A program made the translations under genes and the position numbers. A stretch of 64,000 nucleotides of DNA, taken from contig JACKKX010000003.1 in assembly GCA_024236215.1 (NCBI GenBank), positions 372,001-436,000 on the forward strand, given 5' to 3'. Below the pieces are notes generated by a model. That model did no database searches and was not told the DNA's origin. It saw nothing but the letters and a program-made list of their open reading frames with translations. This document shows, in pieces, positions 53,702-64,000 of the stretch (its first letter is position 1; each line of letters begins with the position of its first letter). Source of the DNA: Novosphingobium sp. GTDB taxonomy: Bacteria > Pseudomonadota > Alphaproteobacteria > Sphingomonadales > Sphingomonadaceae.

Positions 53702-54274
53702 GTGGTCAAGCTCAACAAGATCTATACCCGCACCGGTGACGATGGCACCACCGGACTGGTCGACGGGACGCGCCGGACCAAGCACGATGCGCGGATGGAA
53801 GCAATCGGCGCGGTGGACGAGGCGAACAGTACACTGGGACTGGCGTCCGCGGCGTTGGGAGACCTTGAACGCCACTTGAGCGCCGTTCGGAGAATCCAGA
53901 ACGACCTATTCGATCTCGGCGCCGATCTGGCCACGCCGGGCAGCGATTTCACGCCCTCGCCGATGGTGCTGCGGATCGTTCCGGAGCAGGCTGTCTGGCT
54001 CGAACAGCAGATCGACGCGCTCAATTCCGCGCTTTCCCCCCTCACCAGCTTCATCCTTCCCGGCGGCAGCGAGGCGGCTGCCCGCGTCCATCTCGCCCGG
54101 GCAGCGGTGCGCCGCGCCGAGCGCGCGATCACCGCCCTTGCCGCGGCCGAGCCGGTCAATCCCGCCGCATTGGCCTATGCCAACCGCCTGTCGGACTTTC
54201 TCTTCGTCCTTGCCCGCGCGATCAACGCCGCCGGCCCAGGCGATGTGCTGTGGGTGCCGGGGCAAAACCGCTAG
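53702..54274 (+). CDS. pduO: Cob(I)yrinic acid a,c-diamide adenosyltransferase (PduO type)
   Basis: 190 residues from a GTG at 53702. The ATP-site YTRTGDDGTTGL starts it, then EAIGAVDEANS, RIQNDLFDLGADLATPG and RRAERAITAL. It adds adenosyl to cobalamin to make coenzyme B12, for example for methylmalonyl-CoA mutase. It is coupled to the HIG1 gene. A patch of atypical codons lies at about 53826-53912 without breaking the reading frame. Confidence 0.93.
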   Translation: MVKLNKIYTRTGDDGTTGLVDGTRRTKHDARMEAIGAVDEANSTLGLASAALGDLERHLSAVRRIQNDLFDLGADLATPGSDFTPSPMVLRIVPEQAVWLEQQIDALNSALSPLTSFILPGGSEAAARVHLARAAVRRAERAITALAAAEPVNPAALAYANRLSDFLFVLARAINAAGPGDVLWVPGQNR

Positions 54275-54334
54275 CCTTGGCAGAAAATCGCCGCTAACCA
54301 GCCGCCCTTGCTGCAAGTGCGAAGAGGTGAGGCG

Positions 54335-55309
54335 ATGCGGATTGTCGGTGTGATCGGAGCGGGACAGATGGGCACGGGGATCGCCCAGACCATCGCTCAG
54401 TTCGGGATCAAGGTTCAGCTTTCCGATCTCGATCTGGCCCATGCCGAAGCCGGCAAGGCCAAGATCGACGCCGCATTGGTCAAGCTGGTGGGGCGCGGCA
54501 AGATCACGCCCGACGATGCCCAGGCCGCGCTTTCGCGGATCACTGCAGTTGCCGACTATGCCCCGATGGCCGAGGCTGATCTGATCATCGAGGCGGCGAC
54601 CGAGCGCGAGGAAATCAAACGCAAGATCTTCGAGGCAGCGGGCAAGGTGCTGCGCGCAGACGCGATCATGGCGTCGAACACCAGCTCGATCCCGATCACC
54701 CGCATGGCCACCTCCTCGCCCGATCCGGCGCGGTTCATCGGGCTGCATTTCTTCAATCCGGTCCCGGTGATGGGGCTGATCGAGGTTATTCCCGGCCTTG
54801 CCACCAGCGCCGAAACCGTCGCGCGCACCCGCGCCTTTGCCGAGAGCCTGAACAAGCAGGTGGTCCAGGCCGAGGACGAGCCGGGTTTCGTGGTCAACCG
54901 CATTCTCCTGCCGATGATCAACGAGGCGGTTTTCGTGCTGGGTCAGGGCACCGCCAACATCGCCGATATCGACAAGGGCTGCCGGCTGGGCCTGAACCAT
55001 CCGATGGGGCCGCTGGAGCTGGCCGATTTCGTCGGTCTCGACACCTGCCTCGATATCGTCCGCGTCCTCTATAACACCACCGGCGACAGCAAGTACCGCC
55101 CCGCGCCGTTCGACATTTCTCCGGTCAGGACATTGAACAGCTGGGGCAGCTCGTCGATGCTGGTACGGCGGATCAAGCGGCCAACGCGGGTAATCCGTTG
55201 GTCCTCTTGCCGGGTTGAAAGCGCGCCCTCGCCGTCGCTGCACTCCGCGCGCATCGAGCGGAATTTGAGCATATCGAAAAACTGGTTGCCGCGCCCGACC
55301 CGGCGCTGA
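54335..55309 (+). CDS. hbd: 3-hydroxybutyryl-CoA dehydrogenase, C-terminus replaced
   Basis: 324 codons. Residues 1-258 are a normal 3-hydroxyacyl-CoA dehydrogenase: NAD site IGAGQMGTGIAQTIAQFG, SNTSSIPIT, LHFFNPVPVMGLIEVIPG with the catalytic His, and HPMGPLELADFVGLDT. The family continues LLVKYVEAGWLGRKTGRGFYDY after SKYRPAP; here the frame instead runs through the complement of a sugar transferase gene from about 55109 to a stop at 55307-55309. The last C-terminal helices are lost, so activity and dimer contacts are in doubt. It follows pduO after 60 bp. Confidence 0.8.
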   Translation: MRIVGVIGAGQMGTGIAQTIAQFGIKVQLSDLDLAHAEAGKAKIDAALVKLVGRGKITPDDAQAALSRITAVADYAPMAEADLIIEAATEREEIKRKIFEAAGKVLRADAIMASNTSSIPITRMATSSPDPARFIGLHFFNPVPVMGLIEVIPGLATSAETVARTRAFAESLNKQVVQAEDEPGFVVNRILLPMINEAVFVLGQGTANIADIDKGCRLGLNHPMGPLELADFVGLDTCLDIVRVLYNTTGDSKYRPAPFDISPVRTLNSWGSSSMLVRRIKRPTRVIRWSSCRVESAPSPSLHSARIERNLSISKNWLPRPTRR

Positions 55310-56271
55310 ACGAACAGCACCGGGCTGCCATCCTCGAACAGGATCGCCAGCGCGACGAGGAGCATCAGCGGGGCCAGAACCACCAGCGCGCCGAGCGCCA
55401 CCGCAAGATCGAACAGCCGCTTGAGCACGCGGTCACGCAGATCGAGCGGGCCGACCGAAACTCGCAGCCAGCCGTGCCCGCCCCAGATTCCCGCACCGTG
55501 CGCCTCAAGTTCGGCGACGGCATCGTCGATCACTTCACCCGAGATGTTGGCGCCTTTGAGGATCATCGCCCAGTCGCGCCGCCGCTCGGGGACGCAGCTG
55601 ACGATCACACGGTCGATCGAGCACAACAGCTGGCCGATCCGGTTAAGCGCCGCCGGATCATCGAGCGCGGGTCTCAGCCCGTATTCGGCGGCGGAAATCC
55701 GCATCACTCCATCCTGTTCCACCATGGGGCCGCCATCTTCGATCAGCAGCTCGTTGACCACGGTTTCGCCGCAGCGCCAGCGCACCAGGCTGCGCATCTG
55801 GGCGCGTACCCACACCACCCCGATCAGCGCGGCGATCAGACCAAGGGTATAGATCACGCGCGAGGTATCCTGGCTCGATTTCGAATAGAAAGAGATGAAC
55901 AGCACCGTGGCCGCCGAAAGCGCCAGCGCGCTGAGCGCCCGGCGAACGCCGTGCTGGGCGGTGCGCAGCGCGCCGATCGAGTAGGCGCCATTGTAGAGCC
56001 CCACGGTCAGGAACAGCGGCAGCACCAGTTGCGCGAGCTCCAGCCCCTGAGAAAGCCCCGCGCGCCCCAGGTAGAGATAACCGGAGGCGCAATATCCGGC
56101 GAAAAGTGCCGCGATATCGCCAAGGATCAGTGCCAGGTAGCATTGCAGCCGCCGCCGCTCGAGCGGGCGCGCCTCGGGCAGGTCCGTGTTTTCGCCCGGC
56201 GCCACGCCGTCCCGGTGCGGGCGGGGCGTCTCCCGCCTTTCGCGCGCTGCGACCTGGTTTGCGACCTGCAT
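55069..56271 (-). CDS. Polyprenyl glycosylphosphotransferase, C-terminus truncated
   Basis: 400 codons. Four N-terminal membrane helices (about 45-155), a soluble middle and a fifth helix precede the catalytic domain of exopolysaccharide sugar transferases: FDLAVALGALVVLAPLMLLVAL, GSPVLFVQRRVGRGNQFFDMLKFRSM and the RRTSIDELPQLFNVL motif. The family continues LVGPRPHA... for about 80 more residues; here the match ends at GEMS and the frame finishes with 14 unrelated residues. The 3' end is missing at the same point as hbd. It would start exopolysaccharide synthesis on undecaprenyl phosphate, but is probably broken. It lies 105 bp upstream of the holA stop, same strand. Confidence 0.8.
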   Translation of the reverse strand: MQVANQVAARERRETPRPHRDGVAPGENTDLPEARPLERRRLQCYLALILGDIAALFAGYCASGYLYLGRAGLSQGLELAQLVLPLFLTVGLYNGAYSIGALRTAQHGVRRALSALALSAATVLFISFYSKSSQDTSRVIYTLGLIAALIGVVWVRAQMRSLVRWRCGETVVNELLIEDGGPMVEQDGVMRISAAEYGLRPALDDPAALNRIGQLLCSIDRVIVSCVPERRRDWAMILKGANISGEVIDDAVAELEAHGAGIWGGHGWLRVSVGPLDLRDRVLKRLFDLAVALGALVVLAPLMLLVALAILFEDGSPVLFVQRRVGRGNQFFDMLKFRSMRAECSDGEGALSTRQEDQRITRVGRLIRRTSIDELPQLFNVLTGEMSNGAGRYLLSPVVL

Positions 56272-56376
56272 GGTTTCGACTCGTAGGCTGGTGTGCCTTG
56301 CGGGGCACGAATCGTGCTGTGACTCAATCGGGGGCTCGCCGCAAGTGCGCAGCGATGCTTCGGTCTGCGCCGCCGC

Positions 56377-57405
56377 TCAGTCGCGCTTGGCGGCTCTGGT
56401 TATCTCGGCAAGTTCCTGAGACAACAGCAATTCGGCGCCCTGATTGTTGGCCAGTAGCTTGCGATGCAGGTCCAGCAGCCGCTCGGTCAGCCGGGTCAGC
56501 TTTCTGCCGCGCCAGCGCGAAAGCTGCGCGGCGAGATCGCGCTCATCCTTCCAGAACACCCGCCGGGCGGCGATTTCTGCCTTGAGCAGGGCTTGCACGT
56601 CGCCGCGCGGTCCAAGCTTGCCCGCAAGGTCGGTCAGCTGTGCGGCGCGGCGCTCGAAGGCCAGCAGCAGGCCCACGGGGTTCATCCCCAGCTCGCGCAT
56701 CCGGCGCAGTTCGCCGGGCAGCTTGGCAGTCTGTCCGCCCAGCACGGCGCTGACCAGCGGGGCAAAGCCGTCGTCCTCGGTGCGCGCGCCGACCGCTTCG
56801 AGCGCCGCGAGATCGGCCTCGCGCGGGGCTGCCGGGCTGGCATCGAGATAGAGCGCAAGCTTGTCGATCTCCGAGCGGGCGATGCGGGTATCGAGTGCGG
56901 CGGCGCGCGCGATCCTTTCGGCCAGATCGCCCGACAGCCTGAGGCCCGCCGGGCCCGCCATCTGCCGCACCGCTTCGGTCACCGAGCGCAGGTCGGGCGG
57001 ATAGAACATCGCAACCAGCGCGTCGCCCCGGTTGGCGAGCAGCTTGGCGGTGCGCGACTTGTCGCTGGCTCCGCTCGCCACCACCAGCACCGGGCAGCCC
57101 TCGGTCGGATCGGCCAGCAGGTTCTCGATCGCGTCGTGCGCCTCGTCGCCGCTGGCGCGGATCCAGATGTGGCGGGTGCCGCCAAACAGCGAGGTCGATC
57201 GGGCCTCGTCGCTCAGGCGCACCGGATCGCGGCGCAGATCCGATCCGGCCAGCTCGATCCGTTCGCCCGGTTCGGGCAGCAGCGCGGCAAGATGCTCGGC
57301 CGCGTCCTGCGCCCCGGCTTCATCGGGCCCGCACAAGAAGAATACCCGCGCTTCGCGCGCCGCCCGGGCGGCCTGCCCCCTGAAATCCTTCTGGGTTGCC
57401 TTCAC
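56377..57405 (-). CDS. holA: DNA polymerase III subunit delta
   Basis: 342 residues. Begins [12 protein letters not shown] and holds the AAA-like N-domain with FFLCGPDEAG (a degenerate P-loop as in all delta subunits), LFGGTRHIWIRAS and the C-terminal helical collar domain. It opens the beta clamp in the clamp loader. It overlaps lptE by 4 bp (ATGA). leuS-lptE-holA is the usual order in this group. Confidence 0.94.
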   Translation of the reverse strand: MKATQKDFRGQAARAAREARVFFLCGPDEAGAQDAAEHLAALLPEPGERIELAGSDLRRDPVRLSDEARSTSLFGGTRHIWIRASGDEAHDAIENLLADPTEGCPVLVVASGASDKSRTAKLLANRGDALVAMFYPPDLRSVTEAVRQMAGPAGLRLSGDLAERIARAAALDTRIARSEIDKLALYLDASPAAPREADLAALEAVGARTEDDGFAPLVSAVLGGQTAKLPGELRRMRELGMNPVGLLLAFERRAAQLTDLAGKLGPRGDVQALLKAEIAARRVFWKDERDLAAQLSRWRGRKLTRLTERLLDLHRKLLANNQGAELLLSQELAEITRAAKRD

Positions 57406-57899
57406 GGCGCCGATTGGTTGCGCAAATGAAGCGAGATGCGGGTGACGATCCGGTCGGCCACCTGCTTCGAGAGGTTTTCCAGCGCGGTGTTTTCGGCCGC
57501 GATGGTGGCATATTCGGAAGATACGACGTCAATCCCGGCATCGGACCCGGCGGTGGCATCGAGCACGATCTCGCCGCTGGCCAGATCGACCAGCTGATAG
57601 CGCGCGCGCAGCGTGCGCCGCTCGCGTGCGATGGTATCGTCGGACAGCAGACCCAGTCCCTCGAGCCGGTCGTCCAGCCGGATGTCGAGCCGGTAGCGCG
57701 CGGTGCCGCTGGCACCCGCCGCGCCCAGCCGGTCGGTCAGCGCGTTGCGCACCAGCCATCCGGCCTTGCCCTCGATCGGCGCGACCTCGATCCCCGACAG
57801 CCCCTGGGCGACCGCCCCGCTGGCCCCGCCGGCATACATCGGCTGCAATCCGCAGGCGGAGAGCATCACTGCAAACGCAAGAACCAGTAGGCGCATCAT
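57402..57899 (-). CDS. lptE: LPS-assembly lipoprotein
   Basis: 165 residues. The lipobox is LSAC near residue 16; the mature protein has GLQPMYAGG and a C-terminal pattern typical of LptE. It plugs the LptD barrel in the outer membrane and completes LPS delivery; its partner ATPase LptB is coded at 43161-43940. It overlaps leuS upstream and holA downstream. Its first ~20 codons share the lower-GC, rare-codon character of the leuS end. Confidence 0.92.
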
Positions 57900-60445
57900 G
57901 ACGGCTTCATAACACGACCGGGTATGATGTTAAGCAGTCGATCCGGCACGTAGATGATTCTCTGCGGCTCGACATTACCGACGTGCAAAGTGACTTTCGA
58001 GCTCGCCATTGCAATCGCGAGGTTTGCTTCTTGCGTTTGCCCTTTCGGCACGGTGATCGTGTCACGAACCTTGCCCAGCACCTGGATCGCGATGGTCACT
58101 TCGTCCTCGACTAGCAACGCGGGATCGACGCTCGGCCAGGCTGCGTCGGAGATCAATCCGTCGCCAAGGCCGGACCAGGCCTCTTCGGCCAGATGCGGCA
58201 TCATCGGCGCGACCAGCAGCAGCAGGGCCCGGATCGCGGCCGAACGGCTGGCCGAAGGGGCGGCCTTTTCCACCGCGCTGGCCAGTTCATAGATCCGCGC
58301 GACCGCCTTGTTGAAGCCCAGCCCTTCGATATCCTCGGCCACCGCGGCAACGGCCTGGTCGCGCTTGCGATCCAGCGCCTTGTCCTCGCCGCTGGCCGCC
58401 GGATCGTATTGCCCGAACAGTCGCCACAAGCGCTGCACGAAGCGTGCGCAGCCCTCGATCCCCGCCTCCGACCAGGGCAGGTCACGCTCGGGCGGGCTGT
58501 CTGAGAGCATGAACCAGCGCACCGCGTCGGCACCGTACTGGGCAATGATGTCGTCGGGATCGACGACATTCTTCTTGCTCTTCGACATCTTGATGACCCG
58601 GCCGACTTCGACCGGGTTGCCATCGGATATCAATACCGCCCCGTCGCCGCGCTTCTCGATCTCGGCCGGGCCGAAATAGACCGGCGCCCCGTTGACGGGA
58701 TCGATCCGCGAATAGGTCTCGTGCGTCACCATGCCTTGCGTGAACAGGCTGGCGAAGGGCTCCTTCACGTCGATCAGGCCAATGTGGTTGAGCGCGCGGG
58801 TCCAGAAGCGGGCATAGAGCAGGTGGAGGATCGCGTGCTCGATCCCGCCGATGTACTGCTCGACCGGAAGCCACCTGGCGATCACTTCGGGATCGAACGG
58901 GCGGTCGGCCGGCTGGCTGGCAAAGCGCAGGAAATACCAACTCGAATCCGCAAAGGTATCGAGCGTGTCGGTCTCGCGTTCGGCTGGCTTTCCGCAACTG
59001 GGGCAGACAACGTGCTTCCAGGTGGGATGGCGCAGCAGCGGATTGCCGGGGGTCTTGAAATCGACGTCCTCGGGCAGCACTACCGGCAGCTGATCCCTGG
59101 GCACCGGCACCACCCCGCAGCTATCGCAGTGGATGAACGGGATCGGCGTGCCCCAGTAGCGCTGGCGGCTCACCCCCCAGTCGCGCAGCCGCCAGACGGT
59201 GGTCCCACGGCCCCACTGGCCCTGCTCGGCGCGGGCGATCACCTCGGCCTTGGCGGCCTCGACATCCATGCCGTCAAGGAAGCGCGAGTTCACCAGGGCG
59301 CCGGGACCGGTATAGGCCTCATCACCCTCGAACACGGGTGCGCTGGTCTCACCGTCTGCTACCACCCGCGTAACCGGCAAGGCATATTTGCGTGCGAAAT
59401 CGAGGTCGCGCTGGTCGTGCGCCGGGCAGCCGAACACCGCGCCGGTGCCATAGTCCATCAGCACGAAATTGGCGATGTAGAGCGGCAGCGCGATGCCATC
59501 GTCGAACGGGTGCTTCAGCCGGATTCCGGTGTCGTGCCCGAGCTTTTCCTGGGTCTCGATCTCGGCCGCGGTGGTGCCGCCCTTGCGGCATTCCTCGATG
59601 AACGCGGCAACCGCCGGATCGCCCGCCGCCAGCCGCTGCGCGATCGGGTGATCGGCGGCGATAGCGACGAAGCTGGCGCCGAAGATGGTATCGGGCCGGG
59701 TGGTGAAAACCTCGACTTCGGTGCTGCGGTCTGCGCTCCAGAACCGGATCTGAAGCCCCTGCGACTTGCCGATCCAGTTTTCCTGCATCAGCTTGACCTT
59801 GTCGGGCCAGTTCTTCAGCTCGCCCAATCCGCCCAGCAGATCCTCGGCGAAATGGGTGATCTTGAGGAACCACTGGCTGAGCTTGCGTTTTTCGACCAGC
59901 GCGCCGCTGCGCCAGCCGCGCCCGTCGATCACCTGCTCGTTGGCCAGCACGGTCATGTCGACCGGATCCCAGTTGACCGCCGATTCCTTGCGGTAGACCA
60001 GCCCCGCCTCGTACATGGCAAGGAACAGCGCCTGTTCGTGGCCGTAGTATTCCGGCTCGCAAGTGGCCAGCTCTCGGCTCCAGTCGAGCGCGAAGCCGAG
60101 GCGTTTGAGCTGGGCCTTCATGTTGGCGATGTTGTCACGGGTCCAGCCGCCGGGGTGGACCCCCTTTTCCATCGCGGCGTTTTCCGCCGGCATGCCGAAG
60201 GCGTCCCAGCCCATCGGGTGGAGCACCTCGAAGCCCTTCATTCGCTTGTAGCGGGCCAGCACGTCGCCCATGGTATAGTTGCGGACGTGGCCGATGTGGA
60301 TGCGGCCCGAGGGATAGGGAAACATCTCAAGCACGTAGGAGCGCGGGCGCGGCGAGGCATCGTCGGCGCGGAAGGTTTGCCGCTCATCCCAGGCGGCTTG
60401 CCAGCGCGGATCGGCGCTGGACGGATCGAAGCGTTCACTCGTCAT
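57896..60445 (-). CDS. leuS: Leucine-tRNA ligase
   Basis: 849 residues. Class I motifs: [16 protein letters not shown] near residue 42 and KMSKSKKN near residue 620. The CP1 editing domain is complete ([12 protein letters not shown] and the GYGTG-like segment), and the zinc insert has CDSCG. The last ~60 codons (57896-58060) use codons rare elsewhere in the gene (GTT, CGT, GGT, CAA, AGA, ATA), though the protein still resembles the family ([20 protein letters not shown]). The ribosome site is AGAGGGACG. It leads an operon with lptE and holA. Confidence 0.96.
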
Positions 60446-60497
60446 GGGCGTCCCTCTAGCCGCTCGGCGTGGCTTGTCGAGGGGGCTGTTATGCCAT

Positions 60498-60968
60498 CTA
60501 CTTCGCGGCGCCGGCCTGGCGGCGCAGGTCGCGGGCCTTGGTCAGGATCACGTCCTCAAGCTTCTGGACGCTCGCGGCCTGGACCGGCGCGTCGACCCAG
60601 ATCCCGTTCTGGTTGACCTGACGGCTGGCGGCCACGCGCAGCGCATCGGCGCGCAGATCCTGATCGAGGATCGCCACCGTCACCTTCATCCGTTCGCCCG
60701 GATTGTTGGGGTTGGCGTACCAGTCGGTCACGATCACGCCGCCGTTGCTGTCGGTCTGGAGCAGCGGCATGAAGCTCAGCGCGTCAAGGCTGGCGCGCCA
60801 GAGATAGGAATTGACGCCGATCGTGGTCACCCGGCTGGCAGCGAGATCGGCCTTGGGGCGATCCTTCTTGCCGCCGCAGCTGACCAGCGCGAGAGCCGCC
60901 ATCGCGACCAGCCCGGCCCGGGCAAGGTTGCGCTTGGTCGAAGGGCCGGTGGTGGTGGTGCCAATCAT
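60498..60968 (-). CDS. DUF3576 lipoprotein
   Basis: 156 residues. A signal ends in the lipobox LVSC near residue 31. The DUF3576 core follows: [22 protein letters not shown], then GGVIVTDWY and [13 protein letters not shown]. It is conserved in alphaproteobacteria next to leuS, with no assigned function; an envelope role is likely. It is 52 bp upstream of leuS on the same strand, so it is probably the first gene of that operon. A promoter (TTGCCG, 16 bp, TATAGA) is visible at 61017-61044. Confidence 0.9.
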
Positions 60969-61016
60969 GTCTGCGTCCAGATCCTGTCGTTTCGGGCGGA
61001 ATGCCCTGCCGAGGCT

Positions 61017-61044
61017 TCTATAGCCGAGGCGGCACGGGCGGCAA
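61017..61044 (-). promoter_or_regulatory. Candidate promoter of the DUF3576-leuS-lptE-holA unit
   Basis: On the minus strand: TTGCCG, 16 bp, TATAGA, about 50 nt upstream of the DUF3576 start codon. The -10 is close to consensus. Confidence 0.45.
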
Positions 61045-61219
61045 GCCCGCTTGGCGCGCTAATGCCCGGTGGCGCGGTGAATGGCCGCTGAATGGGTCGG
61101 CGCGTTAAGCGGCAATTCATCGCCGCGTCTGCATCTAGGCGCTTGGATTGCGGGGCGCTGTGCGCGATAAGGCACACGAGGCGAATCCGCCGGGTCAGGG
61201 CAAGGAGTCGGCAAAGACC

Positions 61220-61966
61220 ATGCGTTTTGCAGGGCAGAATGGCGCAAAGCGGATCACCGGCAGTTCGTCGGTGCTGCTTACGGGCGCCGTCGCGCTGCTT
61301 GCGCTGCCCAGCGCGGTGCTGGCCTTTTCGAGCCGATTCGATGCCCTTCAAGCGCAGGACAAGGCTGAAGAGGCGCAGTCCGGATTCGTCCCCGCGATGG
61401 TCGATCCGCGGCTTGCCCGCTCGATCACCGTGCGCGCCCTGTCCAAGGGGCGCCTGTTCCGCTTCACGCCAGCGGCAACAACATCGCGGATGGACCGTTC
61501 GCTGACCGTCGCGGTGCGGCTCGATGCCAATTCGACCCGGACGATCTCGGCCACCGTGCCGGTGCCGCAGGTCGGCTCGCCGCTGCGCATTGCGCCGACG
61601 GCCTACAGCCTGGGGACGACCCGCGGCTATCGCAGCTTTGCCCAGAACACGGCGGCCATTCCGGAAATCCGGCGGATCGAAATGCCCGATCTGGCGAGCT
61701 ATCGGCCCAAGGCCGGTGCGGCTGCGGATCCGGCCCGCTTTGCCCCCCGGATCGAGCTTGACGAGCGTGAAAAGTCGGGCCGCAGCCCGCGCACCTTCGA
61801 GCAGAACGACCAGACCGTGGATGTCGGCGGCTCCTATCGCCTGACCGGTAATCTCAACGTCACCGCCGGGGTGCGCTATACCTCGGATCGTGACCGGCTG
61901 GTGCCGCTTACCGACGGGCGGCAGGACAACCAGTCGGTCTACCTCGGCACCCAGCTGCGATTCTGA
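61220..61966 (+). CDS. Exported protein of unknown function with a beta-barrel-like end
   Basis: 248 residues from the ATG at 61220 (AAGGAG 9 nt upstream). The signal peptide is cleaved near residue 34 (PSAVLA-FS). A Thr/Arg-rich middle (about 60-130) is followed by an end that reads like outer-membrane beta strands: TVDVGGSYRLTGNLNVTAGVRYTS and a final SVYLGTQLRF with terminal Phe, as in proteins handled by the BAM complex. I recognise no named family; similar hypotheticals occur in sphingomonads. It diverges from the DUF3576 gene. Confidence 0.7.
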   Translation: MRFAGQNGAKRITGSSSVLLTGAVALLALPSAVLAFSSRFDALQAQDKAEEAQSGFVPAMVDPRLARSITVRALSKGRLFRFTPAATTSRMDRSLTVAVRLDANSTRTISATVPVPQVGSPLRIAPTAYSLGTTRGYRSFAQNTAAIPEIRRIEMPDLASYRPKAGAAADPARFAPRIELDEREKSGRSPRTFEQNDQTVDVGGSYRLTGNLNVTAGVRYTSDRDRLVPLTDGRQDNQSVYLGTQLRF

Positions 61967-62053
61967 TCCAATAGCTATGCGCGCGCCTTGCCGCGGCGCC
62001 GAATCATGGATTAGAGTAGCTCCCAAAATGCCTGACTTGGGAAAGGGATGCTC

Positions 62054-62776
62054 ATGACGCGAGTGGCGATCGTTACCGGCGGAACCAGAGGAATTGGCGA
62101 GGCGATCTGTCTGCGCCTGCAAAAGCAGGGCCATCAGGTGGTCGCCAACTATGCGGGCAACGAGGAAAAGGCCAAGGCCTTCACCGCGCGCACCGGTATC
62201 CCGGCGATCCGCTGGGACGTGGGCGATCATGAGGCCTGCATCCACAACTGCAACGACATCGCCGCCGAATACGGGCCGGTCGATATCGTCATCAACAACG
62301 CCGGGATCACCCGCGACGGCGTGCTCCACAAGATGAGCTTCGATGACTGGAACGAGGTGATGCGGATCAACCTTGGCGGCTGCTTCAACATGGCCAAGGC
62401 AACCTTCCCCGGCATGCGCGAGCGCGGCTGGGGCCGGATCGTCAACATCGGCTCGATCAACGGCCAGGCCGGGCAATACGGACAGGTCAACTATGCCGCC
62501 GCCAAGTCGGGCATCCACGGCTTCACCAAGGCGCTGGCGCAGGAAGGCGCCAAATATGGCGTCACCGTCAACGCGATCGCGCCGGGCTATATCGATACCG
62601 ACATGGTCGCCGCAGTGCCCGCTCCGGTGCTCGAAAAGATCGTCGCCAAGATTCCGGTCGGACGCCTCGGCCAGGCCGAGGAAATCGCCCGCGGGGTCGC
62701 CTTCCTGACCTCGGAGAACGGCGGCTTCGTGACCGGTTCGACGATGTCGATCAACGGCGGACAGCACATGTATTGA
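62054..62776 (+). CDS. phbB: Acetoacetyl-CoA reductase (SDR family)
   Basis: 240 residues from the ATG at 62054, chosen because AAAGG is 7 nt upstream; an ATG two codons earlier abuts it. NADPH site TGGTRGIG at 8-15, NNAGITRD, and the catalytic S-x12-Y-x3-K (INGQAGQYGQVNYAAAKSG). It is the usual length of PhbB, which makes (R)-3-hydroxybutyryl-CoA for polyhydroxybutyrate. phbA and phbC are not next to it. It is convergent with the HTH regulator gene across the palindromic repeats. Confidence 0.92.
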   Translation: MTRVAIVTGGTRGIGEAICLRLQKQGHQVVANYAGNEEKAKAFTARTGIPAIRWDVGDHEACIHNCNDIAAEYGPVDIVINNAGITRDGVLHKMSFDDWNEVMRINLGGCFNMAKATFPGMRERGWGRIVNIGSINGQAGQYGQVNYAAAKSGIHGFTKALAQEGAKYGVTVNAIAPGYIDTDMVAAVPAPVLEKIVAKIPVGRLGQAEEIARGVAFLTSENGGFVTGSTMSINGGQHMY

Positions 62777-62792
62777 TGCGCCCGCCGGGCAC

Positions 62793-62833
62793 GAAAAGGT
62801 GACACCCCTGTCCGGGGTGAAACCTCTTTTCCA
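62793..62833. repeat. Long imperfect palindrome, copy 1
   Basis: GAAAAGGTGACACCCC opposes GGGGTGAAACCTCTTTTC with a short loop. It shares its GAAAAGGTGACA arm with copy 2. It may terminate phbB and the facing regulator gene. Confidence 0.6.
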
Positions 62834-62849
62834 TCCGATACTTGCTGCA

Positions 62850-62889
62850 GAAAAGGTGACAGATTCGGCTTTTTGGGTGTCACCTTTTC
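62850..62889. repeat. Long palindrome, copy 2
   Basis: GAAAAGGTGACA (62850-62861) opposes TGTCACCTTTTC (62878-62889) with a 16-nt loop. The A- and T-rich ends make it a plausible bidirectional terminator. It repeats the arm of copy 1, 57 bp away. Confidence 0.65.
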
Positions 62890-62988
62890 CGGCCGGGCGC
62901 GGAACAACGATTTCAAAGAGCCGATAGGCAATGCCAGTTTGCGCCGATGTAGGAAAATCGTACGGTTGGTGCTGCTGGTCTCGGTTCC

Positions 62989-63750
62989 TCAGTCGAGCAT
63001 CAAGCCAACTACTCGCCAAGCGCCGTCCTCATAGCTCAGCGCCAGAGTCTCGACCGCCTCGCGCCCGCCGGCAAAGTGACTGAGAAACCGCACATTGTAG
63101 ACCCCGTTGGGCGGTGCCGGACTGAAATCGGCAGTGATCAGATCGCGTTTCAGCGCGGGTCCCAGCGCTCCATGCGCGCCTTGAGCGGCGGCGGTCCACC
63201 GCTCCAGCGTGTTGGCCTCGCGAAACTTGCTGCCCGTCGCGGCATAGCTCGCCTGCCAATTCTTGGCATCGACCAATTCCAGAAACCGCCGCGCAGCCTG
63301 TTCGGCGCCTTGCTGCGCCGGGTCGGCGGCCACGGGCGCGCCCCAGGCGGTATCTGCAAGACCGGCAGTGCCGCCCATGATTTCCGTGACCGCCAAAATT
63401 GCCATTGCCAGACTCATTGCCAAACCTCCGATGATCCAGCCGATGCGGCGTCTGTTGCCGCGATCTTCCACTGGCTGCTCGCAAGGTTGCCTCGCCCCGG
63501 CATCGGCAGCACCCCCGAAACCTTTGTCCCCCAGCAATTGGGGGGTGCGGCACTCTGCCTCGTGCAGCACCCGTGCCGCCTCGCGGCTGCTCGATGTGGC
63601 CAGCTTGCGCCGCGCATCGCGCAGCCGTTCGTTGATCGTGTGGACCGAAAGGCCAAGCTGCCGGGCCATGCTCTTGGCGTCGTGCCCGCTGACCAGCAGC
63701 CGCAGGGCCTGCTTTTCCTTTTCAGTCAGGGTCTCGATCGCAGTATTCAT
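62989..63750 (-). CDS. Membrane-bound HTH regulator with DUF4019 domain
   Basis: 253 residues. Residues 6-65 form a LuxR/sigma-4-type HTH (TLTEKEKQALRLLVSGHDAKSMARQLGLS-VHTINERLRDARRKL). A linker leads to one helix at about 103-121. Residues ~145-253 form a DUF4019 domain (AARRFLELVDAKNWQASYAATGSKFR, then FLSHFAGGREAVETLALSYEDGAWRVVG). Orientation implies a DNA-binding head in the cytoplasm and DUF4019 in the periplasm, i.e. a one-component transmembrane sensor. What it senses is unknown. It diverges from a ribbon-helix-helix gene 62 bp away. Confidence 0.88.
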   Translation of the reverse strand: MNTAIETLTEKEKQALRLLVSGHDAKSMARQLGLSVHTINERLRDARRKLATSSSREAARVLHEAECRTPQLLGDKGFGGAADAGARQPCEQPVEDRGNRRRIGWIIGGLAMSLAMAILAVTEIMGGTAGLADTAWGAPVAADPAQQGAEQAARRFLELVDAKNWQASYAATGSKFREANTLERWTAAAQGAHGALGPALKRDLITADFSPAPPNGVYNVRFLSHFAGGREAVETLALSYEDGAWRVVGLMLD

Positions 63751-63812
63751 GCCGCCGGGTTTAGGCAGCGCGGATATTGCGGGCCACCCCGAATTTTTCG
63801 TATCCCCGCGCC

Positions 63813-64000
63813 ATGACCACCCCGTTCCATCCTCCCGTCAAACGCTCGGTCGAGATCGCCGGGCACAAGACCTCGATCAGCCTCGAGCCGCTGTTCTGGG
63901 AACTGCTCAAGCAGGCAGCGGAGGCGGAGGGCCTGCCGATCAACGCGCTGGTCGCCCGGATCGATGCCGAACGGATCAGGGCCGAAGTCCCGCCTGGGCT
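63813..64000 (+). CDS. Ribbon-helix-helix domain protein (3' end beyond window)
   Basis: The first 62 codons only. MTTPFHPPVKRSVEIAGHK is followed by TSISLEPLFWELLKQAAEAEG, the strand and first helix of the RHH_4 (PF13467-type) fold. It may be a small DNA-binding repressor. It is divergent from the HTH-DUF4019 gene, with a 62-bp shared upstream region. Confidence 0.8.
   Translation, partial: MTTPFHPPVKRSVEIAGHKTSISLEPLFWELLKQAAEAEGLPINALVARIDAERIRAEVPPG

Follow-up and report, generated by a model that had tools for sequence, protein, structure and literature searches.

Head-on junction of truncated hbd and sugar transferase genes in Novosphingobium as a probable scar of exopolysaccharide-locus deletion with a recurrent transferase end

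The 64,000-nucleotide stretch of Novosphingobium DNA analysed here as a whole (the window; G000:C3:372001-436000, from a genome of 3.08 Mb in 7 contigs) contains, on direct reading of its sequence, a head-on junction at positions 55109/55110 between hbd (+ strand) and a holA-linked sugar transferase gene (ST, - strand). This junction is probably the scar of a deletion of an exopolysaccharide (EPS) locus, in which the 3' ends of both genes went too and whose end in ST recurs in the genus, presumably through a sequence-directed break. An end recurring within a few bases in about ten lineages, and three apparent identical two-ended deletions, are unexplained by the deletion routes tested.

The two genes meet as ...GCGCCG(55108) T(55109) | T(55110) CGACATTTCTCC..., in which CCG is hbd Pro256 and 55113-55111, read on the - strand, is ST Ser387 (TCG). 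In the comparison with relatives, hbd breaks off after base 1 of codon 257 and ST 0 or +1 base past codon 387, with that hbd base at the junction (55109..55110) standing next to the complement of ST codon 388, base 1 at most; because this comparison fixes both break positions, the meeting point given by an earlier, sequence-only reading of the window (55109, within 3 bp) was right. The same reading had let the hbd protein match its family up to 55108 and the transferase up to GEMS (55111), and the profile searches agree on both sides to within a few residues. In hbd (3-hydroxybutyryl-CoA dehydrogenase; 54335..55108, + strand), which is conserved to Pro256 and lacks about 31 C-terminal residues, the N-terminal NAD-binding domain is present (PF02737, 6e-59, profile positions 2-179 of 180), the C-terminal 3HCDH domain is incomplete (PF00725, profile positions 1-76 of 97), the score stays below the whole-protein curated cut-off (NF004474, 336 bits vs 408), and the two best NCBIfam HBD models reach no further than residue 257 or 259 of the query. 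ST (residues 1-387, ending GEMS; 55111..56271, - strand) is a monotopic phosphoglycosyl transferase from which about 90 C-terminal residues, VGPRP onward, are gone; it would read GEMS|VGPRP across the break, with Ser387 as its last family-like residue. Its catalytic domain is incomplete (PF02397, Bac_transf, positions 1-103 of 179, ending at residue 387), of ten NCBIfam models seven also stop at residue 387 and the other three at 388, 392 and 396, and matches to solved transferases extend to residue 387. The N-terminal half of ST is present in the window with its Asp-Glu dyad, which we take to be located in SIDELPQ, and D373 and E374 are invariant (alignment A1, 18 rows). An Asp-Glu dyad is mentioned for monotopic phosphoglycosyl transferases in one study (PMC10942596). 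Past the junction each frame, as had been noted from the sequence, is simply the complement of the opposite gene: the full ST frame runs from 56271 to 55069 on the - strand, its run-on tail (55069..55110, NGAGRYLLSPVVL) being antisense hbd, and the hbd tail (55109..55309, + strand) is antisense ST. The left flank, in the ancestral order, is a pduO-type cob(I)alamin adenosyltransferase gene (53702..54274, + strand; PF01923 6e-59, TIGR00636 5e-52), and the right flank is holA (DNA polymerase III delta; 56377..57405, - strand; TIGR01128 2.5e-27).

Intact relatives have ST and hbd in convergent orientation, with an EPS locus separating them. The order by orientation is holA-ST->-EPS genes-<-flippase-<-hbd-<-pduO, exemplified by G084 (holA-ST-ligase-like-wza-wzc-...-flippase-hbd-pduO; the EPS genes, rnd, transposases and the lyase-like gene are named here by recognition of translated sequences by eye), and the pduO-type neighbour is found also in G034, G008 and G084 and, by DNA alignment, in G024. 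The gap between the two break positions is 15.6 kb in G084 and 21.4 kb in G180. Because intact relatives carry 15.6-21.4 kb of EPS genes at this place, the junction is read as an EPS-locus deletion, and the window is taken, from these sequence comparisons, to have lost the EPS locus, about 31 hbd residues and about 90 ST residues including VGPRP. The deletion between two facing genes that the sequence-only reading had preferred, with the rest of an EPS locus and the hbd end removed, is thereby supported, as the comparison of gene order that it had proposed returned pduO-hbd-EPS genes-ST-holA in intact G084. A search for the ST C-terminus covered 15 truncated and 3 intact genomes; the only match elsewhere in G000 was a full-length paralogue on contig C2, and, paralogues aside, the C-terminus was not found in G000 and 11 other truncated genomes (G181 being only 89% complete), while G009 and G192 have other full-length ST paralogues and G188 has an intact second copy. 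Reversible switching within one genome was rejected on the same ground, no copy of the ST C-terminus having been found, paralogues aside, in G000 and those 11 genomes. Loss of EPS through deletion is certain enough.

The fate of the dehydrogenase probably differs from that of the transferase. The sequence-only reading had the strain, if the junction was real, losing a dehydrogenase terminus and the initiating glycosyltransferase; the ST 3' end is indeed lost, but the function of hbd is probably kept despite the truncation at the window, since an intact second copy lies 192 kb away on the opposite strand (G000:C3:233073-233969, a full-length frame of 298 codons with 96% DNA identity to the window hbd over the shared 839 bases). 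This second copy looks, to judge by the split in identity, partly gene-converted, because identity between the two falls from 98-99% in the first 600 bases to 86% in the last 168. It sits (L067:9074-9970) among several transposase-like genes, and a second hbd in G034, 88% identical, begins 46 bp past a transposase-like gene pair (L066); hbd may be carried as a passenger of such transposase elements, which are presumably IS1595-like. Among the other genomes with the hbd junction, residues 1-78 of hbd stand at the starts of two contigs in G004 (C7, C9) and residues 1-30 at two places in G170 (C6, C10), with the middle of hbd missing or single, a pattern as expected if assemblers had collapsed two near-identical hbd copies; in the fragmented genome of G181 one hbd was found.

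The deletion reading was nonetheless incomplete, as the event is not private to this strain: deletions in the genus have repeatedly ended at the same ST codon. From a source set of 195 Novosphingobium genomes, the ST rows among the matches listed, down to about E 1e-75, make up a set of 142 loci from 138 genomes, with a holA match in 130 of the 142. ST ends at codon 387 (Ser387) in 15 of these loci and has its full C-terminus in 123, the remainder being contig-edge cuts or partial C-terminus matches (in G135 a contig edge interrupts it after 20 residues, and in G143 the match covers 78 of 90); the truncated count excludes G142 and G121, which run into contig edges, and G136, which has a frameshift but retains the C-terminus. 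Outside the set are eight further listed rows, all with long frames, from G196, G189, G098, G068, G099, G158, G113 and G194, of which G189 and G194 have an intact ST. Lower-scoring genomes are covered by G027, which has a row in the set, and by 28 chosen genomes approached through holA, 21 of which had a holA match and were examined, several loci ending at contig edges. Eight partner positions are joined to codon 387, namely hbd (G000, G181, G034, G004 and G170), gmd (G021 and G009), rmlA (G216, G192 and G188), an rnd-like gene at its stop codon (G183), wza near its start (G137), wzc twice, near its start (G161) and in its interior (G138), and a lyase-like gene (G203). Judged by gene order, simple deletions would account for the junctions whose undeleted state is known: ST lies 41.7 kb from the rnd-like gene in G131 and is fused to it in G183, and it lies 22.7 kb from gmd in G033 and is fused to it in G009. 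Further rearrangement must be assumed in G216, G192 and G009, because no holA was found near their truncated ST. At these loci (L105, L109 and L119) the truncated ST stands with a short 5' fragment of rmlA or gmd away from holA, units that seem to have been relocated by further rearrangements.

Where it can be fixed, the ST breakpoint lies 0 to +2 bases past codon 387, and +4 to +9 in G188. On the far side, with wza, wzc and the lyase-like gene left out for lack of a close intact relative in the comparison, the same bases are cut in both genes in three tree-separated hbd-ST groups, two gmd-ST cases and two rmlA-ST cases. The chance of such clustering of ST ends is about 8e-12 if the eight partner positions are independent draws and four other breaks are counted as misses. 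Those elsewhere in the gene include breaks within about the first 75 residues (G178, G154) and a fragment ending near residue 296 (G016), and no ST remnant was found after holA in seven genomes. At the contig start of G121:C163 (L209), ST passes into other sequence around residue 379, which is 24 bases short of the hot spot and 20 bases from the contig end; this may be a further deletion close to that motif. Because these other positions exist (G178, G154, G016, G121 and the seven remnant-free genomes), codon 387 is a strong hot spot and not the sole end. In G188 an intact ST copy, 106 kb off from the truncated one, is identical over 1217 bases and has about 390 bp of holA before it; this second place (L110, L112) comprises EPS genes, the intact ST and the ~390 bp of holA beside an IS3-like gene, and the original holA site holds the truncated ST, identical to the intact copy. 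G108:C4 (L192), a replicon of 188,672 bp, bears a second full-length ST.

Several routes to a fixed end were considered and rejected. No cut at codon 387 was seen in the 80 transferase loci of a broad search (the best 80 among the matches listed, at least one of which, L325, is from Novosphingobium), which argues against general fragility of these transferases, nor in 14 loci from other genera of the family; outside the genus no ST frame of 380-440 codons occurred among the matches listed, by a frame-length criterion that misses long run-on frames of the G137/G203 type, and one 357-codon frame there begins at a contig edge. A phage or plasmid carrier was set aside, the next motif (VGPRP or a close form) being present in all 16 viral loci with related transferases; the ST C-terminus as query found one viral contig, at 36% identity, and related transferase genes occur in 15 plasmid records. 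Homology- or microhomology-mediated deletion fails for the hbd-ST type, whose ends in five intact genomes score 5-11 for shared homology, below the chance 95% level of 12; the rmlA junction of G188, where 8 of 9 bases match, is an exception. Ku-type non-homologous end joining fails for the hbd-type junctions because none of the five genomes carrying them yielded a Ku gene (G181 being only 89% complete); among the genomes searched, Ku genes occur in 6 of the 15 with a truncated ST and in 7 of 17 with an intact one. Recombinational exchange at the codon among intact loci was likewise rejected, 69 close pairs showing no general identity step (mean identity 0.888 before and 0.877 after codon 387; largest single step, 0.90 to 0.83/0.79), as was a DNA hairpin, for the folding energy just downstream of the codon (mean -7.4 to -7.7 vs a gene mean of -5.5, sd 1.35) is equalled at several other places in the gene. 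No insertion element or terminal repeat was seen by eye, the junctions read being direct ST-gene joins, and neither a cutting enzyme nor a recognition motif or common homology came to light.

The hbd-ST junction itself is identical in G181, G034, G004 and G170. G181 aligns with window 54217-64000 at 92.8%, straight across the junction; G034 has it in the same order as the window, with pduO, holA, lptE and leuS; and the same type of run-on tail is found in G034, G004 and G170. The chimeric assembly that the sequence-only reading had kept as an alternative, in which an assembler fused two unrelated sequence ends, could appeal to a known fault, since assemblers do produce exact head-on joins of two coding sequences, and to the junction being known from assemblies rather than reads. 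Such a chimera would be expected to be unique, however, whereas four other genomes carry the same join, one of them 92.8% identical across it, in the expected synteny, so that its probability is negligible; mis-assembly or chance is, on comparison of these sequences, a very unlikely origin of the junction because G181, G034, G004 and G170 share it. Relatives with the same short proteins, which had been named as evidence against a lesion, thus do exist, but on the trees they look like separate deletions and not like normal short proteins. In the ST-N tree (141 rows, G157 being left out for its length) the truncated label needs 11 changes, at least 10 of them forced by well-supported branches, and the AU test rejects a single clade of the five hbd-type rows (holA, p 6e-74; ST-N, p 3e-12). 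Intact G180 is sister to truncated G034 in both the holA and ST-N trees; in the holA tree intact G130/G077/G136 stand beside truncated G004/G170, with G000 and G181 elsewhere. The five hbd-type genomes have identical end bases in both hbd and ST, and the last ST bases before the junction are lineage-specific (TCG A or AGC C), which disfavours copying of one junction. Because the trees separate the carriers, the end bases are identical and the ST bases follow the lineage, the same two-ended hbd-ST deletion seems, on this sequence evidence, to have arisen at least three times. One ancestral deletion allele, either spread by recombination in the flanks or ancestral with later regain of the locus, would draw on the homology of the flanks between species and on a junction type common to five genomes. 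It is nevertheless decidedly improbable, given that the ST-side bases are lineage-specific right up to the junction, the carriers lie apart in the ST-N and holA trees and hbd shows little extra similarity between carriers near the junction, and it is incompatible with eight partner positions on one ST end.

The remnants themselves raise a further alternative. All 15 truncated ST frames are free of stops over the aligned part and end in unrelated run-on tails of 6 to 161 residues. Between G000 and G181, ST differs by 61 synonymous and 14 non-synonymous changes (167 expected without selection), a constraint ratio of 0.073, with 0.048 for holA; between G004 and G170 the ratios are 0.081 and 0.039; and the short hbd of G000 and G181 gives 23 synonymous and 4 non-synonymous changes (68 expected; ratio 0.054). 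Such strong purifying selection on both truncated genes (window 54335-56271 vs L113) is unexpected for dead genes, and the hbd constraint could come from gene conversion by the spare copy. Because the truncated ST is nearly as constrained as holA and 15 of 15 frames lack stops, it would appear that the truncations happened very recently in each lineage or else that the remnants retain function; old pseudogenes do not fit. The latter branch leads to the proposal that an ST ending at GDMS is a useful protein under selection, deletions with other ends having been weeded out, for which the ratios of 0.073 and 0.081 and the 15 frames open over the aligned part would speak; but the near base-level precision of the end, with unrelated tails of 6-161 residues, is hard to obtain by selection at the protein level, the same far-side bases in hbd and gmd are left unexplained and other breaks are tolerated, which makes it improbable. 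A dedicated site-specific system (a recombinase, or a homing-type or RNA-guided nuclease) that cuts the ST motif and preferred far-side sites, EPS loss then being a semi-programmed irreversible switch, is conceivable though unlikely. It would account for one ST codon with eight partner positions, for the same bases cut in both genes (three hbd-ST groups, two gmd-ST, two rmlA-ST) and for the lack of homology at the hbd-ST ends, and the 15 of 15 truncated frames without stops over the aligned part would suggest recent events; yet no enzyme, shared motif or element was seen at the junctions read, nothing appeared in viral contigs, and other break positions exist. That Novosphingobium directs DNA cutting to the ST motif and certain far-side genes, repeated and recent EPS excision serving as an irreversible, semi-programmed switch from the coated to the uncoated state, is accordingly a rather unlikely proposition.

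In the deletion-scar reading that we prefer, the deletion would remove the EPS locus between hbd and ST plus the 3' ends of both genes. ST without about 90 C-terminal residues is assumed to be inactive, and the EPS pathway would therefore be off. Losing ST together with its pathway may avoid a dead-end undecaprenyl-linked sugar; the frequent hits in ST would be due to the drain on undecaprenyl phosphate that the initiating enzyme would cause if it stayed active without its pathway, and the loss of the hbd end may be tolerated because a second hbd copy is present. The break would be sequence-directed, within the conserved GDMS-VGPRP coding motif, which is the weakest step of the proposal, and non-homologous joining would then connect the broken ST end to a far-side end, in many cases a preferred site as well. 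Growth defects from the sequestration of undecaprenyl intermediates are reported in Shigella (PMC11218652); such sequestration of undecaprenyl phosphate gives a reason to couple the loss of late EPS genes to that of the initiating enzyme, and accounts for the transferase being hit, not for the position of the cut. If a specific enzyme is behind the deletions, they would represent a new bacterial route to shed a surface coat and a new sequence-directed cutter; even without one, the deletions explain misleading short 'sugar transferase' and 'hbd' genes in the genus.

These deletions are worth comparing with known systems of gene loss. EPS loss is common and, to our knowledge, usually without fixed ends, and among the titles listed in full-text literature searches none dealt with the holA-linked ST locus or with EPS deletions that share a fixed end. 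Site-specific deletion and excision systems, such as phase-variation recombinases and islands with att sites, likewise have fixed endpoints and repeated events, whereas here no recombinase, att repeat or element was seen and the far end varies. Adjacent deletions mediated by insertion sequences also have one end fixed and the other variable, but in them the element should remain at the junction, and no insertion sequence was seen in the junctions read. In wcaJ and wbaP mutants of Klebsiella, capsule or EPS is lost through an inactive initiating phosphoglycosyl transferase, and the Novosphingobium deletions resemble them in that the initiating transferase is knocked out and the polysaccharide lost; unlike in the Klebsiella mutants, part or all of the locus goes too, and the same ST codon is hit in many lineages.
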